From assembly GCA_951828535.1 (NCBI GenBank), contig OX639990.1:855300-919299 (forward strand): a stretch of 64,000 nt of DNA, written 5' to 3'. The notes below the pieces were generated by a model that did not search any database, was not told the DNA's origin, and saw only the letters and a list, made by a program, of their open reading frames with translations. Below are positions 6,140 to 47,975 of this stretch, in pieces. A program made the position numbers and the translations under genes. This stretch comes from an uncultured Candidatus Entotheonella sp. (GTDB taxonomy: Bacteria > Tectomicrobia > Entotheonellia > Entotheonellales > Entotheonellaceae). Positions within the stretch are counted from its first letter, which is position 1, and each line of letters starts with the position of its first letter.

Positions 6140-6622
6140 ATGATCATTTCGAAAACGGAGCACCCGAGTGAAAACCGGCACACTAAGGTTCATTTGCCGC
6201 ATGCGTGGCTGATCACCTGGATGGGCACGGAGACATGGGCGCGGCCGGACAATTGGCGCAGTATCATGGCGATAATCAGCGGTTGGCGGTCTCAGAACTT
6301 TATTGAAGAGGTCCTGTGGTTGCTTGATTCACGAGCAAAAAACTCAGGTTACGCCATGGCATACTACGCAAATCGTCGCCGAGAGTTTGGATTGCCATAT
6401 CGCTGCGGACCCGGCATAAGGACCAGGGGCTCGAACGCGTGGCTATATGCAAGACAAGTGACCGACCTGCAAGGGACCAGGGACGACAAGCATGAGACGA
6501 TAAAGTGGGCTGAGCCTGAGGACTGGCGAAATGACCCGGATACACATCAACTGGTAATTCGCTCGGTTACAAGAAGCCTCGACGAAAATATCGGCGGTGA
6601 ACCGTATAACCGATGGATCTGA
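6140..6622 (+). CDS. Hypothetical protein, first cassette ORF
   Basis: 160-residue soluble protein, rich in Trp and Arg, that I do not recognise. Codon use and base composition are visibly more AT-rich than the flanking genes. Its 3' end overlaps an attC-like recombination site (6604-6720), the usual position for a gene cassette in an integron. It has no signal peptide or membrane span. The start at ATG 6140 is the first in frame and has no strong ribosome site. It is probably a single-gene cassette whose 5' boundary I could not find. Confidence 0.5.
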   Translation: MIISKTEHPSENRHTKVHLPHAWLITWMGTETWARPDNWRSIMAIISGWRSQNFIEEVLWLLDSRAKNSGYAMAYYANRRREFGLPYRCGPGIRTRGSNAWLYARQVTDLQGTRDDKHETIKWAEPEDWRNDPDTHQLVIRSVTRSLDENIGGEPYNRWI

Positions 6623-6720
6623 TGTGCGTTTCGTTTGAGGTCGAGAATTTTTCGGAGTTTCGGTTTCCCCTTCCAGAACTCTGCGCTCCAGTTGTCATGT
6701 TCCGATAAGGGCGGTTATGT
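6604..6720 (+). repeat. attC-like site 1
   Basis: R''-like GTATAAC (6604-6610) sits in the tail of the preceding ORF, and R'-like GTTATGT (6714-6720) lies 117 bp away. Their extended arms TATAACCG and CGGTTATG pair at seven of eight positions. The right end CCGATAAGGGCGGTTATGT recurs at 7720-7741 and, degraded, at 8335-8355. The length is inside the known attC range. The ATG of the next frame (6717) lies inside R'. Confidence 0.5.
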
Positions 6721-6752
6721 TATTTTTTCCGGCTTTCGGAGTAGGGGCAAAT

Positions 6753-7166
6753 ATGAACAATAAGCAAAAGCACCTCGAATTCATCCAGGGCGTGATCAAT
6801 CGCCTTGCGACCACCTCGTTTCGAGTGAAGGGATGGGCTGTTGTTTTGGCTTCCGCGTTGTTCGTCCTGATGAAAGAAGGGCTAGGTGGGCCTCCTGTGG
6901 CTTTGGTCCCCGTGTTGCTTTTCTGGGGGCTGGATGGGTATTTTCTATGGCAGGAACGCCTGTTCCGAGCACTTTACGATCACGTCCGGGTACTAGAAGA
7001 AGGCTCAGTCGACTTCTCAATGGACGTGAGCGCGTTTAGAAATGATTGGAAACAAACTTGGATTGGCGCAGTCTGGTCGATTACGTTAATCCTGTTCTAT
7101 GGGGCTCTTGCCGTCGTCGCCGTGGCGGTGGCCTTACTGTTCAATACTATTGGGAAGGATACGTAA
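6753..7166 (+). CDS. Small membrane protein paired with TIR gene
   Basis: 137 residues from ATG 6753 (in-frame ATG 6717 would add twelve). It has two or three membrane segments: about residues 24-40 and 45-62, and one near the C-terminus. Between them lies a conserved-looking WxLDGYFLWQERLFRxLYD block. I recall this kind of protein next to MTH538-type TIR genes, but its activity is not known to me. One base separates its stop from the TIR start, so the two form a translational unit and probably a two-gene cassette. A membrane effector or anchor for the TIR protein is a reasonable inference. Confidence 0.6.
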   Translation: MNNKQKHLEFIQGVINRLATTSFRVKGWAVVLASALFVLMKEGLGGPPVALVPVLLFWGLDGYFLWQERLFRALYDHVRVLEEGSVDFSMDVSAFRNDWKQTWIGAVWSITLILFYGALAVVAVAVALLFNTIGKDT

Positions 7167-7167
7167 C

Positions 7168-7665
7168 ATGGCCCGGAGAGTGTTCTATAGCTTTCATTAC
7201 AAACCTGACAGCCAGCGGGCCGCCCAAGTCCGTAATATCGGCAGCATTGAAGGGAATGAATCCGCAACGGACAACGATTGGGAAACCGTGACGAAGGGCG
7301 GCGACGCTACTATCAAGAAATGGATCGCCGATCAGATGAACTACCGCACCTGCACGGTCGTACTGGTCGGATCGAATACCGCGAATCGCAAGTGGATCAA
7401 CCACGAAATTGTTAAGTCTTGGGATGAAAATATGGGCGTTGTAGGCATCCACATTCATGGGCTGAAGAATCTGGATAGCGAGACTTCCTCAAAGGGCAAG
7501 AATCCATTTGAGTACCTCACCCATGTAAATTCTGGAAAGAGGCTTTCGTCAATCGTGAAGTGTTACGACCCGGGTGGCCGGACTAGCCGAGAGAAATACG
7601 ATTGGATTTCAAAGTATCTGGCGGACGCGATTGAAGAAGCTATTGATATCCGACGGAACAACTAA
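7168..7665 (+). CDS. TIR-like (MTH538/DUF1863, ThsB-type) protein
   Basis: 165-residue cytoplasmic protein from ATG 7168, preceded by AAGGA. The N-terminal RVFYSFHYKPD, the central CTVVLVGSNTANRKWINHEI and the later GVVGIHIHGLK are hallmarks of the MTH538 TIR-like family, which includes ThsB of Thoeris anti-phage systems. Family knowledge: such TIR proteins make nucleotide-derived signals from NAD+ after phage sensing. Here the usual ThsA partner is absent, and the co-transcribed partner is the small membrane protein at 6753-7166. The stop codon lies inside the attC-like site 7660-7741. A defence role is inferred from family and partner, not shown. Confidence 0.75.
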   Translation: MARRVFYSFHYKPDSQRAAQVRNIGSIEGNESATDNDWETVTKGGDATIKKWIADQMNYRTCTVVLVGSNTANRKWINHEIVKSWDENMGVVGIHIHGLKNLDSETSSKGKNPFEYLTHVNSGKRLSSIVKCYDPGGRTSREKYDWISKYLADAIEEAIDIRRNN

Positions 7666-7741
7666 CGGGTAGGTCTCTAGGGATGAAAGCATCGGATTTC
7701 GTGGAAGGAGGTTTCTTCTACTTCCGATAAGGGCGTTATGT
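7660..7741 (+). repeat. attC-like site 2
   Basis: R''-like AACTAAC (7660-7666) overlaps the TIR stop codon, and R'-like GTTATGT (7735-7741) lies at the right end, 82 bp in total. Internal arms ATCGGA (7691-7696) and TCCGAT (7723-7728) can pair. The right 18 bases match site 1 apart from one missing G. The start codon of the next ORF (7738) is inside R'. Confidence 0.5.
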
Positions 7742-8325
7742 CAATTTGGTTTGATCCTGAGATTCAAGTATTGACAGATTGGACGATGCAAATCCTCACC
7801 CTGCTTGGAACATGGCTCTCTGGACTTGGCACCCTTGCTGCTGCCTTTATTGCACTGTGGCTAGGTCTTCGTGGAAGCAGGGTTAAGTTGAGGGCCTTTG
7901 CTGACCTTCGCCTTGTGGCTGCTGACCTTCGCTCTGTGGTTGGTACTGGCGAGTTGGAGAGAGGTTTGTATATCCAGGTCACAAATGGCGGTGAGCGGCC
8001 AGTTACCATTATCAGTGTCGGCTGGTGTGTGGGCTGGCGTGTGAGTAAAAGGTGGAACAGACGATTTGCCATTAACCCGACAGCTCTCAATCAGTGTCCT
8101 AAAACATTGTCACATGGGGAATCAGCGAGCTTCTATACGTCTTTTTCGGAACAACCGGATTGGATGAGAAACTTTAGCGCCGCTTTTATTAAGAACACCA
8201 CTAGAAGACATGTAAAGACACTTCGTGTGCAGATCCACACGTCGGTAGGTCATACAGAAAACGTAATCCCTGCAGAGAGCTTTCTGAAAGAATTAGAAGA
8301 AGCTGGCAAGTCAGGGGACTGTTGA
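7738..8325 (+). CDS. Membrane-anchored hypothetical protein, third cassette
   Basis: 195 residues. One N-terminal membrane segment (about residues 17-44, WTMQILTLLGTWLSGLGTLA and on) is followed by a soluble domain of about 150 residues with beta-rich character (LYIQVTNGGERPVTIISVGW). This type of small anchored domain is common among orphan integron cassettes, but I do not recognise the family. The first ATG lies inside the R' end of attC-like site 2, so the recombination site would supply the start codon; GGAGG at 7707-7712 is too far away to be its ribosome site. Base composition matches the other cassettes, not the genome. Confidence 0.5.
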   Translation: MSIWFDPEIQVLTDWTMQILTLLGTWLSGLGTLAAAFIALWLGLRGSRVKLRAFADLRLVAADLRSVVGTGELERGLYIQVTNGGERPVTIISVGWCVGWRVSKRWNRRFAINPTALNQCPKTLSHGESASFYTSFSEQPDWMRNFSAAFIKNTTRRHVKTLRVQIHTSVGHTENVIPAESFLKELEEAGKSGDC

Positions 8326-34732: not shown

Positions 34733-34816
34733 TTGCCGTAGGCGCCCTCCAGATTCTTGGTTCCCAGATCTGACGATAACACCTCAAAGCGACGTGAGCA
34801 GAAGGGAAAAGGCTTC

Positions 34817-36268
34817 ATGCCGGCACGGACGGGACAGGATTACATCACCGGGTTGCGGGAACATCCGCCCGAGGTCTGGCTGCGGGGTGAACGGATTACG
34901 GACGTCACCACGCATCCGGCGTTACGCGGGGGTGTGCAGGCTGTGGCCGCTCTCTACGACTTGCAATCCCGCGCCGAGCTGCGTGATGAGATGACCTATG
35001 TGTCAGCGACCAGCGGCGACCGGGTAGGGTACTCCTTCATCATTCCGCAGACGCAACCCGAACTCCAGCAGCGCGGCAGGATGATGATGCGCTGGGCGCG
35101 CACCGGATGCGGCATGCTGGGGCGGTCGCCGGATTTTCTGAACGTCAATTTCGCCGCCTGGAGCGCCGCAGCGGATTATTTCGCCCAGAACCGTCCGGCC
35201 TTCAAAACGCACGTCCGGCAATACTACGAGTACATCCGGGAAAACGATCTGACTTTGACCCATGCCCTGATCAACCTGCAGCGCCGGCGCACCTCGGGCC
35301 AATCTCAACTGTCCGAGGGCGTGGGGTTGCGCGTGGTGCGGGAAACGGACGCCGGCCTGGTGCTACACGGCTCGCGTATTCTGGCGACGCTGGGGCCGAT
35401 CGCCGACGAACTCGCCGTCTACTCGCCCCGTTTTGGAGGCGGGAACGCCGCCGGATCGGAAGCCTACGTGCTCAATTTCGCCATTCCCTGCAGCACGCCG
35501 GGCGTCAAATTTCTGTGCCGCGAGAGTTTCGATATGGGCCGCTCGCACTTCGATCATCCCTTGGGCTCGCGCTTCGAGGAGATGGACGCCACGGTCTTTT
35601 TCGACGATGTCTTCGTGCCCTGGGAGCGGGTCTTTTTGTTGGGGGACGCGGATTTGCTCAATGAGATGCCGCGCGCCACCAACTCGTCGGTGCACACGGC
35701 TCATCAGGGGGCGGTCAAGAACGTGGCGAAGAGCGAGTTCGTGCTGGGCGTGGCCCTGCTCATGGCGCGCACCCTGGGCTCGGAGGAACTGCCGCAGGTG
35801 AAGGAACGTCTGGCCGAGCTTATGACCTACACGGAGGTCATGAAAGCCTCCTTGCGCGCTGCCGAGGTGGACGCGCGGGTCGATCAGTGGGGCGTGATGT
35901 GTCCTGACGATCTGCCGCTGGAAGCCATCCGCACGCTGTTCATGAGCGTCTATCCTCGTATGGTGGAGATTTTGCAACTCCTGGGATCGAGCAGTTTCAT
36001 GGCCCTGCCTTCCGAGGCCGATTTCGAGACCCCGTTGGCGGCGGAGATCGAGCGGTATCTGGCCACGGATACGGCCTCCGCTCGGGAGCGGGTTCAATTG
36101 TTCCACCTGGCGTGGGACGTCGCCTGTAGCGCGTTTGGCGGCCGACAGGTACTCTACGAGCGGTTTTTTGCCGGCGATCCGCTGGCCCGCGCCGGTTTCT
36201 TGTACAGTATGTATCCCAAGGAACCATTGATGGAGCGTATCCGAGAGTTTCTCGGTAAGGATAGTTAA
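34817..36268 (+). CDS. 4-hydroxyphenylacetate 3-hydroxylase family (HpaB-like) FADH2 monooxygenase
   Basis: 483 residues from ATG 34817. The frame opens TGQDYITGLREHPPEVWLRG and carries the HpaB/PvcC/vinylacetyl-CoA isomerase family blocks GRSPDFLNVNFAAW, the substrate-loop SRILATLGPIADEL and FFDDVFVPWERVF. Members bind reduced FAD and hydroxylate phenols ortho to the hydroxyl, yielding catechols. The partner flavin reductase (HpaC) is not in the window. The next gene, an extradiol dioxygenase 18 bp away, would cleave the catechol, so this is probably step one of an aromatic pathway. Confidence 0.88.
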   Translation: MPARTGQDYITGLREHPPEVWLRGERITDVTTHPALRGGVQAVAALYDLQSRAELRDEMTYVSATSGDRVGYSFIIPQTQPELQQRGRMMMRWARTGCGMLGRSPDFLNVNFAAWSAAADYFAQNRPAFKTHVRQYYEYIRENDLTLTHALINLQRRRTSGQSQLSEGVGLRVVRETDAGLVLHGSRILATLGPIADELAVYSPRFGGGNAAGSEAYVLNFAIPCSTPGVKFLCRESFDMGRSHFDHPLGSRFEEMDATVFFDDVFVPWERVFLLGDADLLNEMPRATNSSVHTAHQGAVKNVAKSEFVLGVALLMARTLGSEELPQVKERLAELMTYTEVMKASLRAAEVDARVDQWGVMCPDDLPLEAIRTLFMSVYPRMVEILQLLGSSSFMALPSEADFETPLAAEIERYLATDTASARERVQLFHLAWDVACSAFGGRQVLYERFFAGDPLARAGFLYSMYPKEPLMERIREFLGKDS

Positions 36269-36286
36269 CGCAACAAGGAGGCACAC

Positions 36287-37201
36287 ATGGAGCGCGTGAC
36301 CCAACTTGGGTATCTGGGGATAGGGGTAAGTGATGTTGAAGCTTGGGAACGCTTTGCGACCCGGACGCTTGGCTTGCAAGTACACGAGCCGGACGCCGAT
36401 GGCACCTTGTTCCTGAAAATGGACGAGTACCATCACCGGTTCGCCCTGCGAGCCAACGGGCATGATGACGTTGACTACGTGGGCTGGGAGGTCGCCGACG
36501 AACATGCCCTCAAGGCAATACAGGCGCAATTGGAAACCGCGGGGGTCGAGGTGACGGCCGGCGCCGCAGACCTGGCGGCGCAGCGGCGGGTTGTGGATCT
36601 CATTGCCTTCGACGACCCGGACGGATTGCGCACCGAAATTTTTTACGGTCCGCTGGTGAACTACGACCAACCCTTCGCCTCGCCACGCGCCATTTCGGGT
36701 TTTGAAACCGGCACGCAGGGGCTGGGGCACATCGTGCTGGTGGTGGAGGACGTAGGACAGAGTATTCACTTCTACCGCGACGTGCTCGGCATGCGCATCA
36801 GCGATTTCGTGCAAACTTCCAGGATGGCCCCGGCCGGGAGCGCCTCGCGCCGCATGGCCTTTTTCCACTGCAACCCGCGCCACCACTCGGTCGCGTTTCT
36901 GGCTGCGTCGATCAAGCCCCGCCTGCGGCACTTCATGCTGCAAACGCAATCGCTCGACGACGTCGGCTCGACGTACACGCTGTGCCAAGACCAGGGCGTG
37001 CCGATCAACCGCACCATGGGGCGGCACACCAACGACCACATGGTGTCGTTCTACATGGCGTCGCCGTCGGGCTTCGAGGTCGAATACGGCTGGGGGGCGC
37101 GCACCGTGGACGACAGCACCTGGCAGGTGCAGCAGCACACGACGGGCAGCATTTGGGGACACCGCACCCCAACGGATCAGCCGGTCGCCGCGCAGGGTTA
37201 G
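36287..37201 (+). CDS. Extradiol ring-cleavage dioxygenase (BphC/VOC type)
   Basis: 304 residues behind AAGGAGGCACAC. Two vicinal-oxygen-chelate repeats are seen. The Fe(II) ligands sit in the C-terminal repeat: His in GLGHIVLVVED, His in RLRHFMLQT and Glu in GFEVEYGWG. His in HHSVAF and Tyr in SFYMASPSG fit the catalytic site of type I extradiol enzymes such as 2,3-dihydroxybiphenyl dioxygenase. It would open a catechol ring next to the hydroxyl groups. It follows the HpaB-like hydroxylase directly and precedes an AhpD-like gene by 45 bp, suggesting one operon. Confidence 0.9.
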   Translation: MERVTQLGYLGIGVSDVEAWERFATRTLGLQVHEPDADGTLFLKMDEYHHRFALRANGHDDVDYVGWEVADEHALKAIQAQLETAGVEVTAGAADLAAQRRVVDLIAFDDPDGLRTEIFYGPLVNYDQPFASPRAISGFETGTQGLGHIVLVVEDVGQSIHFYRDVLGMRISDFVQTSRMAPAGSASRRMAFFHCNPRHHSVAFLAASIKPRLRHFMLQTQSLDDVGSTYTLCQDQGVPINRTMGRHTNDHMVSFYMASPSGFEVEYGWGARTVDDSTWQVQQHTTGSIWGHRTPTDQPVAAQG

Positions 37202-37246
37202 GTCCAGGAAGACAAGGGATTCGAACGGCAAGGAGAGAAACCATTC

Positions 37247-37687
37247 ATGGCGACAATGACTGAAGAACGGGTGGCAACCGTCCGCATGGTGAGCGAAGAC
37301 GAGGCAAGCGGCAAGGTGGCGGCGATATTCGCCGACATCAAGGCCACCAAGGGACTGTCGTTCGTGCCCAATTTCTGGCGCGTTCTGGCGACGAACCCCG
37401 ACCATCTGGAACTGGTGTGGACGAACCTGAAAACCCTTATGCACCCGGAGACCGTCGGGCGCCCGTCGCGGCTTGACCCGCTGACGCGTGAGATCATCGC
37501 CCTGGCGGTGTCGGCGACCAACGGCTGCGCGTACTGCACCAACTCGCACACCGCGGCGGTGCGCAAGCTGGGCCTGGATATCGAGGCGCTAGGCGAGGTG
37601 ATGGCCATTGTCGGGCTGTTCAACACCACCAACACCCTGGCCGATGGCTATCAGGTCGAACCCGACGTGCTGCCACCGCTGGACTAA
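37247..37687 (+). CDS. AhpD-like/carboxymuconolactone decarboxylase-domain protein
   Basis: 146 residues. The active-site signature CAYCTNSHTAAVRKLG, with CxxC and a following histidine, is that of AhpD-like peroxidase-related proteins. The segment AIFADIKATKGLSFVPNFWRVLATNP matches the same family. Such proteins reduce peroxides or act with ring-cleavage pathways. Its place after the hydroxylase and extradiol dioxygenase suggests protection from, or handling of, pathway intermediates. It is the last gene of that set, before a 515-bp intergenic region. Confidence 0.85.
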   Translation: MATMTEERVATVRMVSEDEASGKVAAIFADIKATKGLSFVPNFWRVLATNPDHLELVWTNLKTLMHPETVGRPSRLDPLTREIIALAVSATNGCAYCTNSHTAAVRKLGLDIEALGEVMAIVGLFNTTNTLADGYQVEPDVLPPLD

Positions 37688-39367: not shown

Positions 39368-39531
39368 CACCCCATCCCCTCCGTTCCAGTTTGCAAAGGT
39401 ATGTCGTACCGTCCAGTCGCGAAAATTGTCACGGCAAGGCTGCGTTCTTATTCCATTGGCCCTGAAAAGGCGATACAGTGGCGCCCCAGACCAATTTCGC
39501 ACGTCATCCCCTCTGCGGAAAGGAGCACACC

Positions 39532-40716
39532 ATGGATGCGGGCAACGATCATTCCTCCAACATAACCCGACGGGATTTCGTCAAGACCTCATCGGCCCTG
39601 GCGGTCATGGCAACCCTTGGCGAGGCGCTGGTTGAGCATTCGCAAGTAGCGCTGGCGCAGACGTCCGACAACGGCGAAGGCCCGAGGGTGCAGACGGTTC
39701 TGGGCCCGATTTCGCCGGAGGACCTCGGCGTCACGCTCATGCACGAGCACGCCCCGGTGATCGACTGGTCGGAGCTGTACGGCCATCCCATCGCCCCGAT
39801 TGAAGGCGCGTTCCGCCAACAAGTCATTGACCAGGCGGCAAGCGGCTTGCAGGCATTTCACAATCAGCTCGACGGCTGGGCCAAAAGCGGCACGATCGTC
39901 GAGGTGACGCCGATCCGGGTGGGTCGCTACCCCGATCTGATCGTCGACATGGCCAGGAAAAGCCCGGTCCACGTCGTCGGCTGCACCGGGTTCTGGGGCG
40001 AGGCGCTGGCGCCCATGCACCTGTGGGCCGCCGCCATGTTGGTGCAGCCCAACGGCATCGAGCAGGTCACGCAGCTCTACGTGAAGGAAATCACCGAAGG
40101 GATGGAAGACCCATACGGCGAGCCCGGCGCCGGCTTCACGGACGTCAAAGCCGGCATCATCAAGATCGCCACCAGCACCTATCTGACCGCCCTGGAGCGG
40201 CACGCCAATACGGCGGCGGGACTGGCCTGCATCGAAACGGGCTGTCCGATCAGCGTCCACACCACCGACGGCGGCGGCCTGGAGATGGCCCAATTACTGC
40301 TCTCCCTGGGTGTCAGCCCGCAGAAGATCATCATCGGGCATCAAGGCTACAAGGATGACCGCGAGAACGTCCGGGCCACGGACTATCACAAGCAACTGGC
40401 GGACCTGGGGGTGTGGGTGCAATTCGACCGCATTGGTTACCCGAATTACCCGGTGGAAGACCGCGCCGAGTACATCAGGCCGCTGCTGGACGCGGGCTAT
40501 GAAGACCAGCTCCTCCTGAGCCACGACACCGTTCCTTATTTTTACCGGACGTTCTGGCAGGAGGAGAAGCGCGAGTCGGATTGGTGGCTGTTCAAGGAAG
40601 ACCCGTGGACGCTGATTCTCTCCGAGGTGGTGCCGAAGCTCAACGAGGCAGGTATCACAAAACGGGTGGTCAGCAAGATTCTGATCGACAATCCGAAGAA
40701 GGTTCTGGCGTTCTAA
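39532..40716 (+). CDS. Tat-exported phosphotriesterase-family amidohydrolase
   Basis: 394 residues from ATG 39532 (AAAGGAG upstream). The leader TRRDFVKTSSALAVMATLGE is a twin-arginine signal, so the enzyme folds with its metals in the cytoplasm and works in the periplasm. The binuclear metal site of the PTE family is visible: HEH at 71-73, a lysine in the AGIIKIATS block, histidines in ISVHTTDGGG and IIIGHQGYKDD, and Asp in LLSHDTVPY. True substrates of such proteins are usually lactones or esters rather than organophosphates. It stands alone; a bidirectional hairpin separates it from the converging ABC genes. Confidence 0.88.
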   Translation: MDAGNDHSSNITRRDFVKTSSALAVMATLGEALVEHSQVALAQTSDNGEGPRVQTVLGPISPEDLGVTLMHEHAPVIDWSELYGHPIAPIEGAFRQQVIDQAASGLQAFHNQLDGWAKSGTIVEVTPIRVGRYPDLIVDMARKSPVHVVGCTGFWGEALAPMHLWAAAMLVQPNGIEQVTQLYVKEITEGMEDPYGEPGAGFTDVKAGIIKIATSTYLTALERHANTAAGLACIETGCPISVHTTDGGGLEMAQLLLSLGVSPQKIIIGHQGYKDDRENVRATDYHKQLADLGVWVQFDRIGYPNYPVEDRAEYIRPLLDAGYEDQLLLSHDTVPYFYRTFWQEEKRESDWWLFKEDPWTLILSEVVPKLNEAGITKRVVSKILIDNPKKVLAF

Positions 40717-40772: not shown

Positions 40773-41606
40773 CTAACCCTTAACCGACCCCATGCTGAGG
40801 CCGCGGATGAAGTAGCGGCTGAGGAAGGCGAACAGGGCCAGCAGGGGCAGGCAGATCATGGTCGAACCCGCCATCAGCTCGCCCCAGTTCGCGTCGTAGG
40901 CGTCGTCGATGGAAGCGAGGCCATAAGGCAGGGTCTTGAGCTCATCGGAGGTGATGAGGATGAGCGAGAAGACGAAATCCGACCACGACAGCACGAAGGC
41001 GAACAGCACGACCGTCAGCACGCCGGGCAAGGTCAGGGGCATGATGATGCGGTAGATGGCCTGCAGGCGCGAACAGCCGTCGATGAACGCCGACTCCTCC
41101 ACCTCGAACGGAAAGTTCTTGAAGAATCCCCACATCAGCCACACACCGAGCGGCAGCGTAAAGGTGCTGTGCGTCAGAATGAGGCTCAGGCGCGTGTCGT
41201 CGAGGCCGATCTTCACCAGGAAGATGTAAATCGGAATAGCCAGCAGCAGGGCAGGAAACATGTACGCGAAGAGCATGGCCCGCACCATGAGCATCATGCC
41301 CGGCAGGCGGCTGCGCACCAGGGCATAGGCCATCGGCGTCACCACCGCCACGGTGAGCACGGTGGTGCCCACGGCGATGAGAATGCTGTTGACGTAATAC
41401 GTCGGGAAGTCCGTCAGGCTGAGAATGGTCTTGTAGCCCTGCCATGAATACGGCCCCGGCAGCAGCAGCGGCTCGAACAGGGAGCGCCCGGCGCGCAGGC
41501 CGGAAACCACCATCCAGTACATCGGAAACAGCGAGTAGAGGGTCACCGCAATGAAGAGGAGCAACAGGAAAACGCGGCGGATCAGAACCCAGTTCTTTTT
41601 GCGCAT
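40773..41606 (-). CDS. ABC sugar transporter permease (MalG-like)
   Basis: 277 residues with six membrane spans. The EAA loop (EVEESAFIDGCSRLQAIYRI and following), where the ATPase docks, is well conserved for carbohydrate-uptake family 1 importers. It starts at the base next to the malF-like stop, so it is coupled to it. No ATPase gene is nearby, so a shared MsmK-like ATPase elsewhere is expected. Its 3' end is seven bases from a strong hairpin. Confidence 0.92.
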   Translation of the reverse strand: MRKKNWVLIRRVFLLLLFIAVTLYSLFPMYWMVVSGLRAGRSLFEPLLLPGPYSWQGYKTILSLTDFPTYYVNSILIAVGTTVLTVAVVTPMAYALVRSRLPGMMLMVRAMLFAYMFPALLLAIPIYIFLVKIGLDDTRLSLILTHSTFTLPLGVWLMWGFFKNFPFEVEESAFIDGCSRLQAIYRIIMPLTLPGVLTVVLFAFVLSWSDFVFSLILITSDELKTLPYGLASIDDAYDANWGELMAGSTMICLPLLALFAFLSRYFIRGLSMGSVKG

Positions 41607-42542
41607 TTAGTGCTCCTCCAGCGGAAACATCCGGAAGTAAATCCAGATCAGCAGGGCCAGGAACACGAAGATCGACGTGGCGATGGCGGTGCCGCCGCCG
41701 ATGTCGAACATGTCGAAGGTCTTGACGTAGGCCAGAATGGGCAGGTGCTCGGTGGTGGTGAGCGGGCCGCCGTTGGTCATCAGCCACACGATGTCGAATT
41801 TGTTGAACATGAAAATGGTGCGCAGCATGACGATGACGATCAGCACCGGCTTGAGCACCGGCAGGGTGATGTGAATGAGGCGCTTCCAGGCGTTGGCGCC
41901 GTCCACCGCGGCGGCATCGTACAGATCGTCGGAGATGGTCTGCAGGGCCGCCAGGAAGGTGATGGTGACGAACGGCGTCCAGTACCACACGCTGACGAAA
42001 ATGATGGAGAACCAGGCCGCCACCGGCGAGCTGAACCAGGCAATGGGGCCGACGCCGACGTTCTCCAGGAAAACGTTGAAGATGCCGTAGTTGATGTTGA
42101 GGAGCCACTTCCAGATGTATACCACCACCACGGTCGGCAGGATATACGGTGCCAGCGCGGCGCTGCGCAGCCAGTTGCGGCCGCGAAATTCCTGGTGCAG
42201 AAGCAACGCGATAGCGATGCCGATAACCACCTGCAGGGCGACCGTGGCCACGGCGTAGAACAGGCCGTGCCAGAAGGCCTGCCAATAACGCGGCTCGGAA
42301 AACACCCGGATGTAGTTGCCCAGCCCGACGAACGTCGGCTCGTCGATAAAGCTTTCGGCGTGGAAAAAACTCAGTTGGATGGCGTAGATGACGGGGATGA
42401 ACAGCGCCCCGATGCCGAGCAGCATGCCGGGCGCCAGGAAGGCGAGAAAGATCTTGCGGTCGCGCCGCTCCAGGGGGCCGGCGCTGGAGACCTCTCGCGG
42501 CGCTGGCAGCGCCACCGAAGCCGTGCGGCGCAGGGTAACCAT
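41607..42542 (-). CDS. ABC sugar transporter permease (MalF-like)
   Basis: 311 residues with six membrane spans and the docking loop LYDAAAVDGANAWKRLIHITLP. The N-terminal cytoplasmic stretch is short, as in most sugar permeases other than E. coli MalF. It is the middle gene of the importer: four bases after the binding-protein stop and directly abutting the malG-like gene. It would form a heterodimeric channel with MalG-like for a mono- or oligosaccharide. Confidence 0.92.
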   Translation of the reverse strand: MVTLRRTASVALPAPREVSSAGPLERRDRKIFLAFLAPGMLLGIGALFIPVIYAIQLSFFHAESFIDEPTFVGLGNYIRVFSEPRYWQAFWHGLFYAVATVALQVVIGIAIALLLHQEFRGRNWLRSAALAPYILPTVVVVYIWKWLLNINYGIFNVFLENVGVGPIAWFSSPVAAWFSIIFVSVWYWTPFVTITFLAALQTISDDLYDAAAVDGANAWKRLIHITLPVLKPVLIVIVMLRTIFMFNKFDIVWLMTNGGPLTTTEHLPILAYVKTFDMFDIGGGTAIATSIFVFLALLIWIYFRMFPLEEH

Positions 42543-42546
42543 GGCC

Positions 42547-43902
42547 TCAGCTCCTCGTGGTAAAGTCCCGGATTTCCTCGGCCGCGGTGTCCACGGCCTC
42601 GCTCGGGGTCATGCGTTTCATCAGCACCCGCTGGTACATCTTGGGAATGACGCCGGCTATCGCGAGGCGTGCATGGTTCGGCGACGGTCTGGGGCCCTGA
42701 AAATCGATGGAGCCAGCCAGCGTCGTATCCGTGTTCATGAAGCCGCGCATCGTTTCAACGGCTTCCCAGTGCTTCTCGATCAGCGGATGACTGCGCCATT
42801 TCTCGTTCTCGTAGGTGGAGAACTGGGTCGGCTGGTAATGCAGCGGTACCGTGAGCTGGTAGTCGATCAGGCGCTCGGTGGCAAGGAACCAGCGGAAAAA
42901 ATCCACCGTCAATTCGGAATTTTCCGTCTTGCCGATGGAAAAGCCGTCGTCCCCGTACGTCACCGCCCGGCGCCCGCCGTCGGGCCCCGGATAAGACATG
43001 ATGCCGTATTTGTCGGCCAGTTCCGGATTGCGGTCTTCAATGGTGTGGATGGCGCGGCCGGTGTACGAGGTGATCGCTGACAGGCCGGACGAGAAGTTGA
43101 TCAACATGTCCTTCAGACTCGCTTCCATCGGCCCCGGCGGTGTGTATTTCGCCACCTCGGCAAGGAACTCGAGCGTTCGGATGGCTCGCGGCTTGTTATC
43201 GTCGGAGTCCAGGACGACGTTCCACTCGTTGTCGTAAAACTGCACCCCGGCAGCCCACAGGAATGCCGTGTTGCCCCAATTGGTGTGTAACCCGCCGAAA
43301 GGCAGGGTGATGGCGTAACGCTTGCTCGCCGGGTCGTTGAGGGCGCGGAGCACTTCCAGAAACTCGTCCCAGTCGTTGGGCACCTGCAGGCCCTTCTCGG
43401 CGAACAAGTCTTTTCGGTAGAGCAGGTAATTGAAGTTGTAGTCGTAAGGGTAGAGCCAGTAATCGTCCTGGAATAAGCGTAGGGCGCGCGGCCCGAAATC
43501 ATCTTCGCCAACTTCGCGGATGATGTCGGTAAGGGGGACGAGCTGGCCTTGCTCGGCCAGCAGGATGGCCAGGTTGGTAAAGTAGATGATGAAGTCGTAG
43601 GGCCTGCCGGCCTTGATGGCGGTGGTCACCTTGGTAACCGTCTGCATCACCGGCACGGTTTCGATCTTCACCCGCACGCCGGTTTCGGCCCGGTAGGTCT
43701 TGGCCATTGCTTTCAGGAAGGCAATGGTGTCGGGGTCCGTTTCGTTGTTGAAAATGCGGATCGTGCCCTTTCGGGCGTACACCCGCTGCGGCATGCCGGC
43801 GGACCCCAGCAACGCCGCCCCGCCCGCGGCGCCTAGCGTGTGCAGAAAACGACGGCGCGGCATGGCCGTGCTGAACAGTGGCGATGGACGCTGACCAGCC
43901 AT
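42547..43902 (-). CDS. Extracellular solute-binding protein, carbohydrate type
   Basis: 451 residues behind GGGAGAGGAAGC. A twin-arginine-like leader (MPRRRFLHTLGAAGGAALLG) precedes a mature domain typical of family 1 binding proteins (GTIRIFNNETDPDTIAFLKA, later SLKDMLINFSSGLSAITSY). It captures a carbohydrate in the periplasm for the permeases downstream. Its gene is first of the three-gene importer. A damaged VOC gene and the linalool-dehydratase-like gene lie upstream on the same strand, and a GH105 gene diverges beyond them, so a plant-type or sugar-acid oligosaccharide is a reasonable guess. Confidence 0.9.
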   Translation of the reverse strand: MAGQRPSPLFSTAMPRRRFLHTLGAAGGAALLGSAGMPQRVYARKGTIRIFNNETDPDTIAFLKAMAKTYRAETGVRVKIETVPVMQTVTKVTTAIKAGRPYDFIIYFTNLAILLAEQGQLVPLTDIIREVGEDDFGPRALRLFQDDYWLYPYDYNFNYLLYRKDLFAEKGLQVPNDWDEFLEVLRALNDPASKRYAITLPFGGLHTNWGNTAFLWAAGVQFYDNEWNVVLDSDDNKPRAIRTLEFLAEVAKYTPPGPMEASLKDMLINFSSGLSAITSYTGRAIHTIEDRNPELADKYGIMSYPGPDGGRRAVTYGDDGFSIGKTENSELTVDFFRWFLATERLIDYQLTVPLHYQPTQFSTYENEKWRSHPLIEKHWEAVETMRGFMNTDTTLAGSIDFQGPRPSPNHARLAIAGVIPKMYQRVLMKRMTPSEAVDTAAEEIRDFTTRS

Positions 43903-44451: not shown

Positions 44452-46008
44452 TCAGCGAGACTGCGTGATCAAGATGACGTGCTCGCCAACGGTGGTGGTG
44501 ATCTCCAGGCCGTCTGCAACGACGCGCCAATCGTCAGACGGACAGCCGTCGATTTCGACTTGGCACGATGCCGGATCGATGTTGGCGACGCGGAATGCCG
44601 TCGGCTGGCCGGCCGCGTGGGGAAGGCCGGCGTCGGTGGCAATAACAAGGCGGCGGCGGGCGACGTCATAGCGGGCCTGCGAGAGGCAGACGGTCGGGAA
44701 ATCGACGCCATACACCGTAGGCTCTTCGAATTTGCGGAAGTTGGGCTGGTCGAACAGCCGTCGCCAAGCGCCCTCGGACAGGGCTTCGGCCATCATTCGG
44801 GTGGCGTTGAATTGACCGCGCGGGTGGGGCTCGTTGAGTCGGAACCCCCAAGTGAATTCGCCGGTCGCTGTATCCCAGGCGGGTTCGTGGTGCCCTTCGC
44901 AGTGGGTTGCGAGCTTGTCGTAGATGGCGGTGTCGCCAAACTCGCGGGCCAAAATGAGGCCCCACAGGGTAAAGCGGGGATTGCCGCGCGGCTCGCGCAA
45001 CGGGGCGTCGGTCATCCAGCCCAGGCGTTCAGCGGCGGCGGCGAAAATGAGCTCGGCCACCTGTGGCTTCTGCGGCGCGAGGTAGACCGCCATCATCAGG
45101 GCGCTTTCAGGACCGCGGCGGTGGTCGTAGCGCAGGATGGGGTCGTAATACAGGGTCAGGGTGTCGCCCAGCTTGCCGTCCCGCAGCCCCACGTAATGCG
45201 TTTCGGCATGCGGCCACCACTGCTCGAACACCCCATGCCAACCGGTGCCGAAAAGCGTGTCATACAGCCCCAGACCGAGGCCGGCGGCGCTCAGTCAAAC
45301 GGGCCAGATTTTGGTGTTCTCGCAGTGACACCCCTCGTGCCGCGCGCCCCATTGGTCGGCCAGCAACTCGGCGATGGCGTGGTGCGACCACGTAAACGTA
45401 TGGGCGCCGTCGCGGATCATCTCGAACGGCTGCTCCCACTTGCCTTCGCCCGAAACGTATCGGTGCAGGCCGAGCATCAGCAGAAAGAAGCCTTTGAAGA
45501 ACAGGTTGCCGTCGGCGCCGATAGGGTCCATCTGCAGCCCCCACGGCTCGATGCCGTTGGCCGTCCAGCCCGGCACGTCGTACTTGCCGCGCAGTTCCGG
45601 GGCCATGAAATACGCGTACCACCCCTCGGGGTATGACCCCCGCCGGGGGTCAGGACCGATTTGTTCCAGCCAGTCCCTGGCCGCCCAATAACCGGTGTGG
45701 CGATGGATCAACTCATCCAGAACACGGCTGTATACCTCACGCCAGGCCGGCGTGGCTTCGGCCATCAGGGCCATAGCGTAGCTGGACTCGATTAGATCGA
45801 AACGGTGCCACGACAGCGTTGGCTCGTTGCTGACGGCGTCCCAATGCGGGTGCGGCCGCCCCTCCTTGCTCCAATCGTCCGGCGTGGTGGCCTTGCGATA
45901 CAGATAGCGCAGCCACCCCCGGCTACGCGCCGAGGTGGCAGGATAACCCGCGGCCGTCCGGCTCATCGTCTCCTCCACATCAATCGGTCCCGAATCGTTC
46001 ATCCCCAT
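44452..46008 (-). CDS. Linalool dehydratase/isomerase-family protein, candidate selenoprotein (in-frame UGA)
   Basis: 518 codons from ATG 46008 (GGGAGGG eight bases upstream) to the stop at 44452, with one in-frame TGA at 45295-45297 (codon 238). Both halves belong to one Ldi-type alpha,alpha-barrel protein: DPIGADGNLFFKGFFLLMLGL (161-181) before the TGA; LYDTLFGTGW and LILAREFGDTAIYDKLATH after it. In Castellaniella linalool dehydratase, as I recall it, Cys171 and Cys180 lie in the active site. Here C229 keeps the first (CEN) and the TGA falls exactly nine codons later, on the second; the intervals to the YDxLxGT block also agree. A SECIS-like hairpin follows. Selenocysteine insertion is therefore the best reading; a recent TGC-to-TGA nonsense mutation is the alternative. 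The family's KGH histidine is Phe (FKGFF). Unlike periplasmic LinD it has no signal peptide. Neighbours are a sugar importer and GH105, so the substrate need not be a terpene. Confidence 0.72.
45265..45297 (-). promoter_or_regulatory. UGA codon plus bacterial SECIS-like hairpin
   Basis: On the minus strand UGA (45297-45295) is followed by 11 nt and then CGGCCUC-GGUCU-GGGGCUG (45283-45265). This gives a seven-pair stem (two G-U) closed by the loop GGUCU. E. coli fdhF also has 11 nt between its UGA and the upper stem, and a GGUCU loop that SelB reads. Confidence 0.65.
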
Positions 46009-46259: not shown

Positions 46260-47975
46260 ATGGAGTCGAAGCCCTCACCCATCATGAAAGACCTGCGACC
46301 GTTGATCGCCGCCTCCGATGGCCTGTGGAGCCTGGACGCGGTCGGTCTGACGCGCTCCCAAACGGCCATCCCGGCGCTGCTGCATGGCGAGGCGTACGTG
46401 ACGGAAACGCCCCGCACCCGCGTGTTGCTGCTCAGCGGCCTGTCCGGCGAAAAAGCCGACACCGCACTGGCTCTGGATGCCATGAAGATCTACCTCGACG
46501 GCGGCGAGACACTGACTGACACCGTGGCCCTGAGTGCCGTGCCGTGCGCCAATCCGGATGGCATGACGCTGGGCGTCGCACCCGAAAACGGTGCCGGCGG
46601 ACGTCCCGCCGAGGATTACCCACCCATCGTGGGTTTCTTCAACGATCGCCGCAACCCGGAGCAGAGGTATCTGTGGCGTTGGATCGGCCTGCAAGCGCCC
46701 GATCTCATCCTCGAAGTCCAAATTGGCGAGGCGGTGTCCTGGGTATCATCGGCCTCAGCGATCCTGTTATTGCCCACCATCGAGGCCACCCGAATGGAAG
46801 AGACTGCCGGCAGCCTCCTGGCGGCGCTCGGTAGCCACATGGCAAACGGCCTTGGCGCCGTGCCCGGCCTGCGGCTCACCACCCCCGCCGCCGCGTTGCG
46901 GGAGGAACTAGGCCGCCTGTGGTCGGTACTGCAGCAAACTCCCGGGCTGCGCACCTCGCCGGCCCGCCGGGAACTGTACAACCGCAGCACGCGGACGCCC
47001 TTGGGCATCGCCCGCCTGCTGGCCACCATTTACGGCCACAGCCTCGAACCCGTGGTGTACACGCAAGGCATGAGCCTCAGCGCGCGGCTGCGGCTGGCGC
47101 GTCTCGATCCCACCTATTCCGACCCGTCGGCCGATATCGCGGAGATCGTGGCGCCCTACGTGGACGGCAGCAAGCCGTGGTTCGAGAGTGAGCCCGGCAC
47201 GCCCGCTCTGGCGGGACTGATCTGGGCCATGCAACTCGCCGAGTCGACCCGAGAGCGCCGCTATGCCGATCTGGTCGTGCAAATGGCCGACCGCTATCAG
47301 CCGGATGCCGAGGGGGGTGCGCCGCGGCCGTCCGACGCCGATTTCCGCACCGAGGACATGTTCATGAACGGCGCCATGCTGGGCCGCGCCTTCCGGTTGA
47401 CCGGCGAGACGCGCTACCTCGACCTGCTCACCAAGTTTCTGCTCGCGGCCCGCACGCAGCAGGACGACGGCCTGTTCTGGCACGCCCGCTCGACGCCCTG
47501 GTTGTGGGGGCGCGGCAACGGGTTCGCGGCGTTGGGTTATTCCGAAACGCTGACGTACCTGCCCGAGGACCACCCGGACCGCGGGGCATTGATCGAGCAA
47601 CACGTACGCCACCTGGAAGCCTTGCGCAGCCGCCAGCACCCCTCCGGCATGTATCCCCAGGTGCTTGATACGCCCGGCTCGTATCTCGAATTCACCGCCA
47701 CCTGCATGGCGGGCTACGCCATGGCTCGCGCCCTGCGCCGCGGCTGGCTGGATGAGTCGTACCAAGCCTCCGTAGACCGCGCCTGGCGGGGCGTCACCGA
47801 GCGCATCGACGACGCTGGCGGCTTGATCGATTGCTGCACCGATACCGGCGCTCAGGACAGCCTGCAGGCGTACCTGGACCGCCCAGCCGTCTTCGGCGGC
47901 GACAACCGTGGCGGCTCGATGGCCATGTGGTTCGCGCTGGAGATGGAACAACTGAGGCGATCGCAAGGGAAATGA
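46260..47975 (+). CDS. GH88/GH105-family unsaturated uronyl hydrolase with M14-like N-terminal domain
   Basis: 571 residues. From about residue 285 to the end it is an alpha6/alpha6-barrel of the YteR/GH105 type: RTEDMFMNGAMLGRAFRLTG with the catalytic Asp, GLFWHARSTPWLWGRGNGFA, and GMYPQVLDTPGSYLEFTATC. Such enzymes hydrate 4,5-unsaturated uronic acid ends left by polysaccharide lyases. Residues 1-190 resemble a zinc carboxypeptidase (M14) fold (LLLSGLSGEKADTALAL, PCANPDGM), but the metal-binding HxxE is not conserved, so this part is probably non-catalytic. No signal peptide is seen. It diverges from the linalool-dehydratase-like gene. Confidence 0.8.
   Translation: MESKPSPIMKDLRPLIAASDGLWSLDAVGLTRSQTAIPALLHGEAYVTETPRTRVLLLSGLSGEKADTALALDAMKIYLDGGETLTDTVALSAVPCANPDGMTLGVAPENGAGGRPAEDYPPIVGFFNDRRNPEQRYLWRWIGLQAPDLILEVQIGEAVSWVSSASAILLLPTIEATRMEETAGSLLAALGSHMANGLGAVPGLRLTTPAAALREELGRLWSVLQQTPGLRTSPARRELYNRSTRTPLGIARLLATIYGHSLEPVVYTQGMSLSARLRLARLDPTYSDPSADIAEIVAPYVDGSKPWFESEPGTPALAGLIWAMQLAESTRERRYADLVVQMADRYQPDAEGGAPRPSDADFRTEDMFMNGAMLGRAFRLTGETRYLDLLTKFLLAARTQQDDGLFWHARSTPWLWGRGNGFAALGYSETLTYLPEDHPDRGALIEQHVRHLEALRSRQHPSGMYPQVLDTPGSYLEFTATCMAGYAMARALRRGWLDESYQASVDRAWRGVTERIDDAGGLIDCCTDTGAQDSLQAYLDRPAVFGGDNRGGSMAMWFALEMEQLRRSQGK

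Follow-up and report, generated by a model that had tools for sequence, protein, structure and literature searches.

The linalool dehydratase/isomerase (Ldi) of Castellaniella defragrans is a member of the family PF18566 with several structures available (PDB 5G1U, 5HLR, 5I3T, among others). In this enzyme, Cys170 and Cys179 must be reduced, the replacement of either one by Ala or Ser leads to inactivation, and a capping disulfide joins Cys48 to Cys101 (PMC6600392). The two catalytic cysteines perform acid/base (or covalent) chemistry on an alkenol. They are cited here as Cys170 and Cys179, and correspond to Cys171 and Cys180 in the numbering of a preliminary description of the locus under study.

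A 2026 inventory lists 119 prokaryotic selenoprotein families, most of them redox or thioredoxin-like, with a small subset carrying two or three selenocysteine (Sec) residues; it cites Haft and Tolstoy 2025 and includes families from that work (PMC13188914). No Ldi, PF18566 or dehydratase entry was found in this inventory, in agreement with the preliminary statement that no described selenoprotein was known in the Ldi family, and no paper linking linalool dehydratase with selenocysteine was found in the openly accessible journal literature. A candidate for such a protein is described here from a window of 64,000 nucleotides (the whole stretch of DNA analyzed), which is part of a 3.62-Mb single-contig genome (G000) of the same genus as OY282375.1, Candidatus Entotheonella sp., a group of sponge-symbiont-type bacteria.

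An Ldi-Like Gene With One In-Frame TGA

The candidate gene occupies positions 46008-44452 of the minus strand, from an ATG (46008-46006) to a TGA stop (44454-44452). When the TGA at 45297-45295 (codon 238) was read as Sec, no other internal stop was present in the 518 codons. The preliminary description had reported one TGA interrupting a gene of this length; its coordinates were right, the frame is single and continuous, and the strand, which had been left unstated, is the minus. The similarity to Ldi claimed for both sides of the TGA was also recovered, since the Pfam Ldi match (61.8 bits) covered residues 159-380 and ran through this codon. The other two scores obtained with the profile, 68.2 and 45.4 bits, also exceeded the curated cut-off of PF18566 (26.1 bits). 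No NCBIfam model covered the protein, and a structure prediction from two sequences gave a mean pLDDT of 43.2.

Chance occurrence was surveyed over approximately 118 kb of the same genome, which contained 3077 TGAs in all frames, 201 of them with 60 open codons on each side. Among these 201, the TGA of codon 238 ranked second by the coding score of the weaker flank. Furthermore, the orthologue of a genus-mate (G002, OY282375.1), assembled separately and with 86% amino acid identity, carried a TGA at the same codon, and the suspicion that the TGA might be an assembly error was therefore refuted.

The Catalytic Columns and the Cys-Form Homologues

The catalytic segment aligned without gaps to that of the Castellaniella Ldi, with a Cys-Glu followed by the second Cys nine residues on, which confirmed the spacing of nine that had been proposed between Cys229 and the TGA. 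Cys229 (TGC, 45322..45324, minus strand) lies on the column of the first catalytic cysteine of Ldi (Cys170/171), and the TGA, read as a putative Sec238, on that of the second (Cys179/180). An additional Cys227 (45328..45330, minus strand), recognized from the sequence and the alignment, is found two residues ahead of the first catalytic column; the intact Sec forms share it, and the Streptomyces homologue described below has Pro at this position. In an alignment of seven proteins in which Sec was written as C, Cys229, Glu230 and position 238 were invariant, among a few dozen invariant columns.

The CE...C arrangement, identically spaced, recurred in three Ldi-like proteins that are distant and come from unrelated genomes. 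A further homologue, encoded on a Streptomyces plasmid (WP_331743850.1, hypothetical protein), is full-length, with the motif HCENTKIWP-C and identities of 43.5% to the window gene and 36.6% to its paralogue. Unlike the Sec forms, this protein (HCENTKIWPFC) has an ordinary Cys at both columns, and its gene has no SECIS-like hairpin. The column of codon 238 was Cys in every Cys-form homologue seen (the Castellaniella Ldi, the Streptomyces protein and those of the three distant genomes) and TGA in the second species of the genus, as anticipated for a position that alternates between Cys and Sec.

The window gene differs from the Castellaniella Ldi in its putative Sec at the second column, in an added C-terminal part beyond the Ldi match and in its N-terminal half. 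No Cys was found ahead of residue 227, so the Cys48-Cys101 disulfide of Ldi cannot form in the same way. The N-terminus, MGMNDSGPIDVEETMSRT, was judged by eye to be without a hydrophobic segment, and no signal peptide was evident.

A Paralogue With Two TGAs

An Ldi-like paralogue, 62% identical to the window gene, was located in the same genome (G000:C1:3254616-3256142), about 3 kb from selD. It reads EGCQ-U-ENTKIWPQ-U-LAGAGLG, with one TGA at each of the two catalytic-Cys columns and none elsewhere, and would therefore be a putative double-Sec form. The three TGA positions across the two genes thus all fall on the two catalytic-Cys columns.

The copy of the paralogue in G002 (L028, G002:C1:1719000-1733000, about 6380-7840) has kept both TGAs and the hairpin described below, and is frameshifted; it has lost 18 nt immediately past the hairpin and carries another deletion at its 3' end. 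This copy is probably decaying in that genome, unless assembly errors account for these lesions.

A SECIS-Like Hairpin Downstream of the UGA

A SECIS-like hairpin with a 7-bp stem was found at 45265..45283 (minus strand). Its loop, GGUCU, occupies 45276-45272 and begins 18 nt past the UGA. The hairpin, CGGCCUC-GGUCU-GRGGCUG, followed the UGA of the second Cys column at the same offset in all four copies; copies A and B are related, and hence their hairpins are not independent. An equally good hairpin arose in 0.2-2.2% of synonymous resamples. The motif TGA-N18-GGTCTG occurs nine times genome-wide, and only in the two Ldi-like genes does it lie within a long frame that is open both upstream and downstream, the paralogue being counted as open upstream apart from its own first TGA. 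Over longer stretches the stability of the hairpin was ordinary (z about 0), and the codon conservation at the hairpin was significant only in part (p 0.0045-0.19), with other stretches equally conserved. No SECIS match was returned by Rfam.

The loop hexamer GGUCUG lies exactly 18 nt past the UGA, as in the SECIS of Escherichia coli fdhF, a comparison made with a 41-mer that matched fdhF exactly. Unlike fdhF, the protein is unrelated, the stem is different and position 17 is G instead of U. In the E. coli SECIS, a bulged U at position 17 is important.

Additionally, the first UGA of the paralogue is followed by a separate 8-bp hairpin whose loop contains the second UGA; this hairpin is absent where that first codon is TGC. 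It is possible that the two overlapping hairpins are used sequentially.

Selenocysteine Machinery and Distribution

The presence of selA, selB, selC and selD had been put forward as a point to verify, and the whole set was encountered in the genome: a tRNA-Sec with anticodon UCA, a selA (606 bits) adjoining selB, a selB whose match spans positions 1-580 of the 581 in the model, and selD. The selD product (G000:C1:3248000-3263000, L027; near the double-TGA gene) has 754 aa, with a pyridine-nucleotide-disulphide oxidoreductase domain fused at its N-terminus. Formate dehydrogenase is a common Sec client. The formate dehydrogenase-like genes of this genome had no internal TGA, nor did its CMD families, and the Ldi-like genes would thus give the Sec machinery something to serve in a genome whose formate dehydrogenase-like genes lack this codon.

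All five genomes of the class had a tRNA-Sec above the cut-off. In the three outside the genus (G001, G003 and G004), no Ldi-like gene was seen, and other selenoproteins therefore probably exist there. The Sec form was detected in two genomes only, both of one genus. No other was found in a sample of 386 genomes of relatives, which contained only the three distant Cys forms. The phylum of one genome (G044) was covered by only three genomes. Viral contigs and phages yielded no Sec form, and plasmids only the Streptomyces Cys form. Since automatic annotation would truncate genes of this kind, the family may be hidden elsewhere.

Genomic Neighborhood and Possible Substrate

The genes around the window gene were intact and in the same order in G002. 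Downstream on the minus strand lies a sugar-type ABC importer (40773..43902), composed of a solute-binding protein (43902-42547) and two permeases (42542-41607 and 41606-40773), with its order conserved in G002. A glycosyl hydrolase family 88-type protein (46260..47975, plus strand) is the divergent neighbor, also conserved in G002, and a member of the phosphotriesterase family (amidohydrolase-like) that bears a TAT signal (39478..40716, plus strand) is another conserved neighbor. Farther along, at 34757-37687 of the plus strand, an HpaB-type hydroxylase, an extradiol-dioxygenase-like protein and a CMD protein stand in a row and probably form an aromatic degradation cluster. Elsewhere in the genome, the motif TGAGCAAAACCRCCCTCACTTGGTCTG was present twice, about 1.45 kb apart (L051 and L052; G000:C1 about 506800-508300), which suggests a duplicated segment unrelated to Sec.

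As a working guess, the substrate would be an imported sugar-derived compound or a small alkenol, the idea of a sugar coming solely from the neighboring genes. Linalool is an unlikely substrate because neither a signal peptide nor the cysteines of the capping disulfide were evident; for the same reasons, a cytosolic location is probable, as is a function other than that of a linalool enzyme.

Discussion

The genes and genomes compared here make it very probable that the window gene encodes a selenoprotein of the PF18566 superfamily, in which the UGA of codon 238 would be decoded by SelB and tRNA-Sec, directed by the GGUCU hairpin 18 nt downstream. We strongly infer the incorporation of Sec at this codon. 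The preliminary description had recognized, in a TGA at the catalytic Cys of an Ldi-like enzyme, the pattern of a selenoprotein; this proposal was supported, and nothing on which the data could have overturned it (the decoding machinery, the codons of relatives or the assembly) spoke against it.

A recent nonsense mutation in a decaying pseudogene would agree with the state of the G002 copy of the paralogue, which is frameshifted and deleted. Nevertheless, the TGA of the window gene has been kept in two species at a dS of about 0.4, with dN/dS values against the G002 orthologue of 0.11 before the TGA and 0.24 after it, the latter indicating that the downstream part is under protein-level selection. 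The 518 codons contain no other lesion, the synteny is intact and all three TGAs lie on catalytic-Cys columns, and we regard a pseudogene as highly improbable.

Still less credit can be given to a split enzyme, in which translation would terminate at the TGA and re-initiate at a GTG about 22 codons on (45231). Two open reading frames of 237 and 259 aa, delimited mechanically, are compatible with it, but the codons between the TGA and the GTG align without gaps to the close homologues, the decayed G002 copy excepted, a catalytic residue would be lost and the catalytic segment cut, and the two TGAs of the paralogue, nine codons apart, are explained by no split. A reassigned or leaky TGA, read as one of the standard amino acids such as Trp, Gly or Cys, is just as implausible: nothing specific was found in its favor, many genes of the genome terminate in TGA, from which it follows that this codon is not reassigned, the TGA-reading tRNA identified is the tRNA-Sec, and the column is Cys in all of the Cys-form homologues.

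Taking the selenoprotein reading forward, Sec238 would replace the second catalytic cysteine of Ldi, and the alignment suggests that the paralogue would have Sec at both positions. The enzyme would be a hydro-lyase/isomerase working with a selenolate in place of a thiolate, its chemistry probably being a (de)hydration or isomerization by acid/base or covalent catalysis. A selenolate has a lower pKa than a thiolate and is a better nucleophile. The nearby Cys227 may guard the selenium, perhaps in a resolving role. As far as the sequences can tell, there is also a fair likelihood, lower than that of the selenoprotein itself, that an uncultured symbiont-type lineage possesses a hydro-lyase/isomerase family with Sec at one catalytic Cys and a sister enzyme with Sec at both. 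The latter would have a di-selenol site of non-redox character, acting by acid/base or covalent catalysis; its two UGAs, separated by nine codons, would be served by SECIS hairpins that overlap and may be used in sequence.

A Sec version of a paired-Cys enzyme that forms and cleaves C-O bonds would, if true, be a natural test of what selenium gains in acid/base or covalent catalysis, and the one-Sec and two-Sec pair of a single genome, together with the two-Cys form of Streptomyces, makes a ready comparison series. These proteins would share with the known prokaryotic selenoprotein families the same logic of Cys/Sec pairs, and they appear to constitute a family absent from the 2026 inventory, with a chemistry unlike that of most known selenoproteins.
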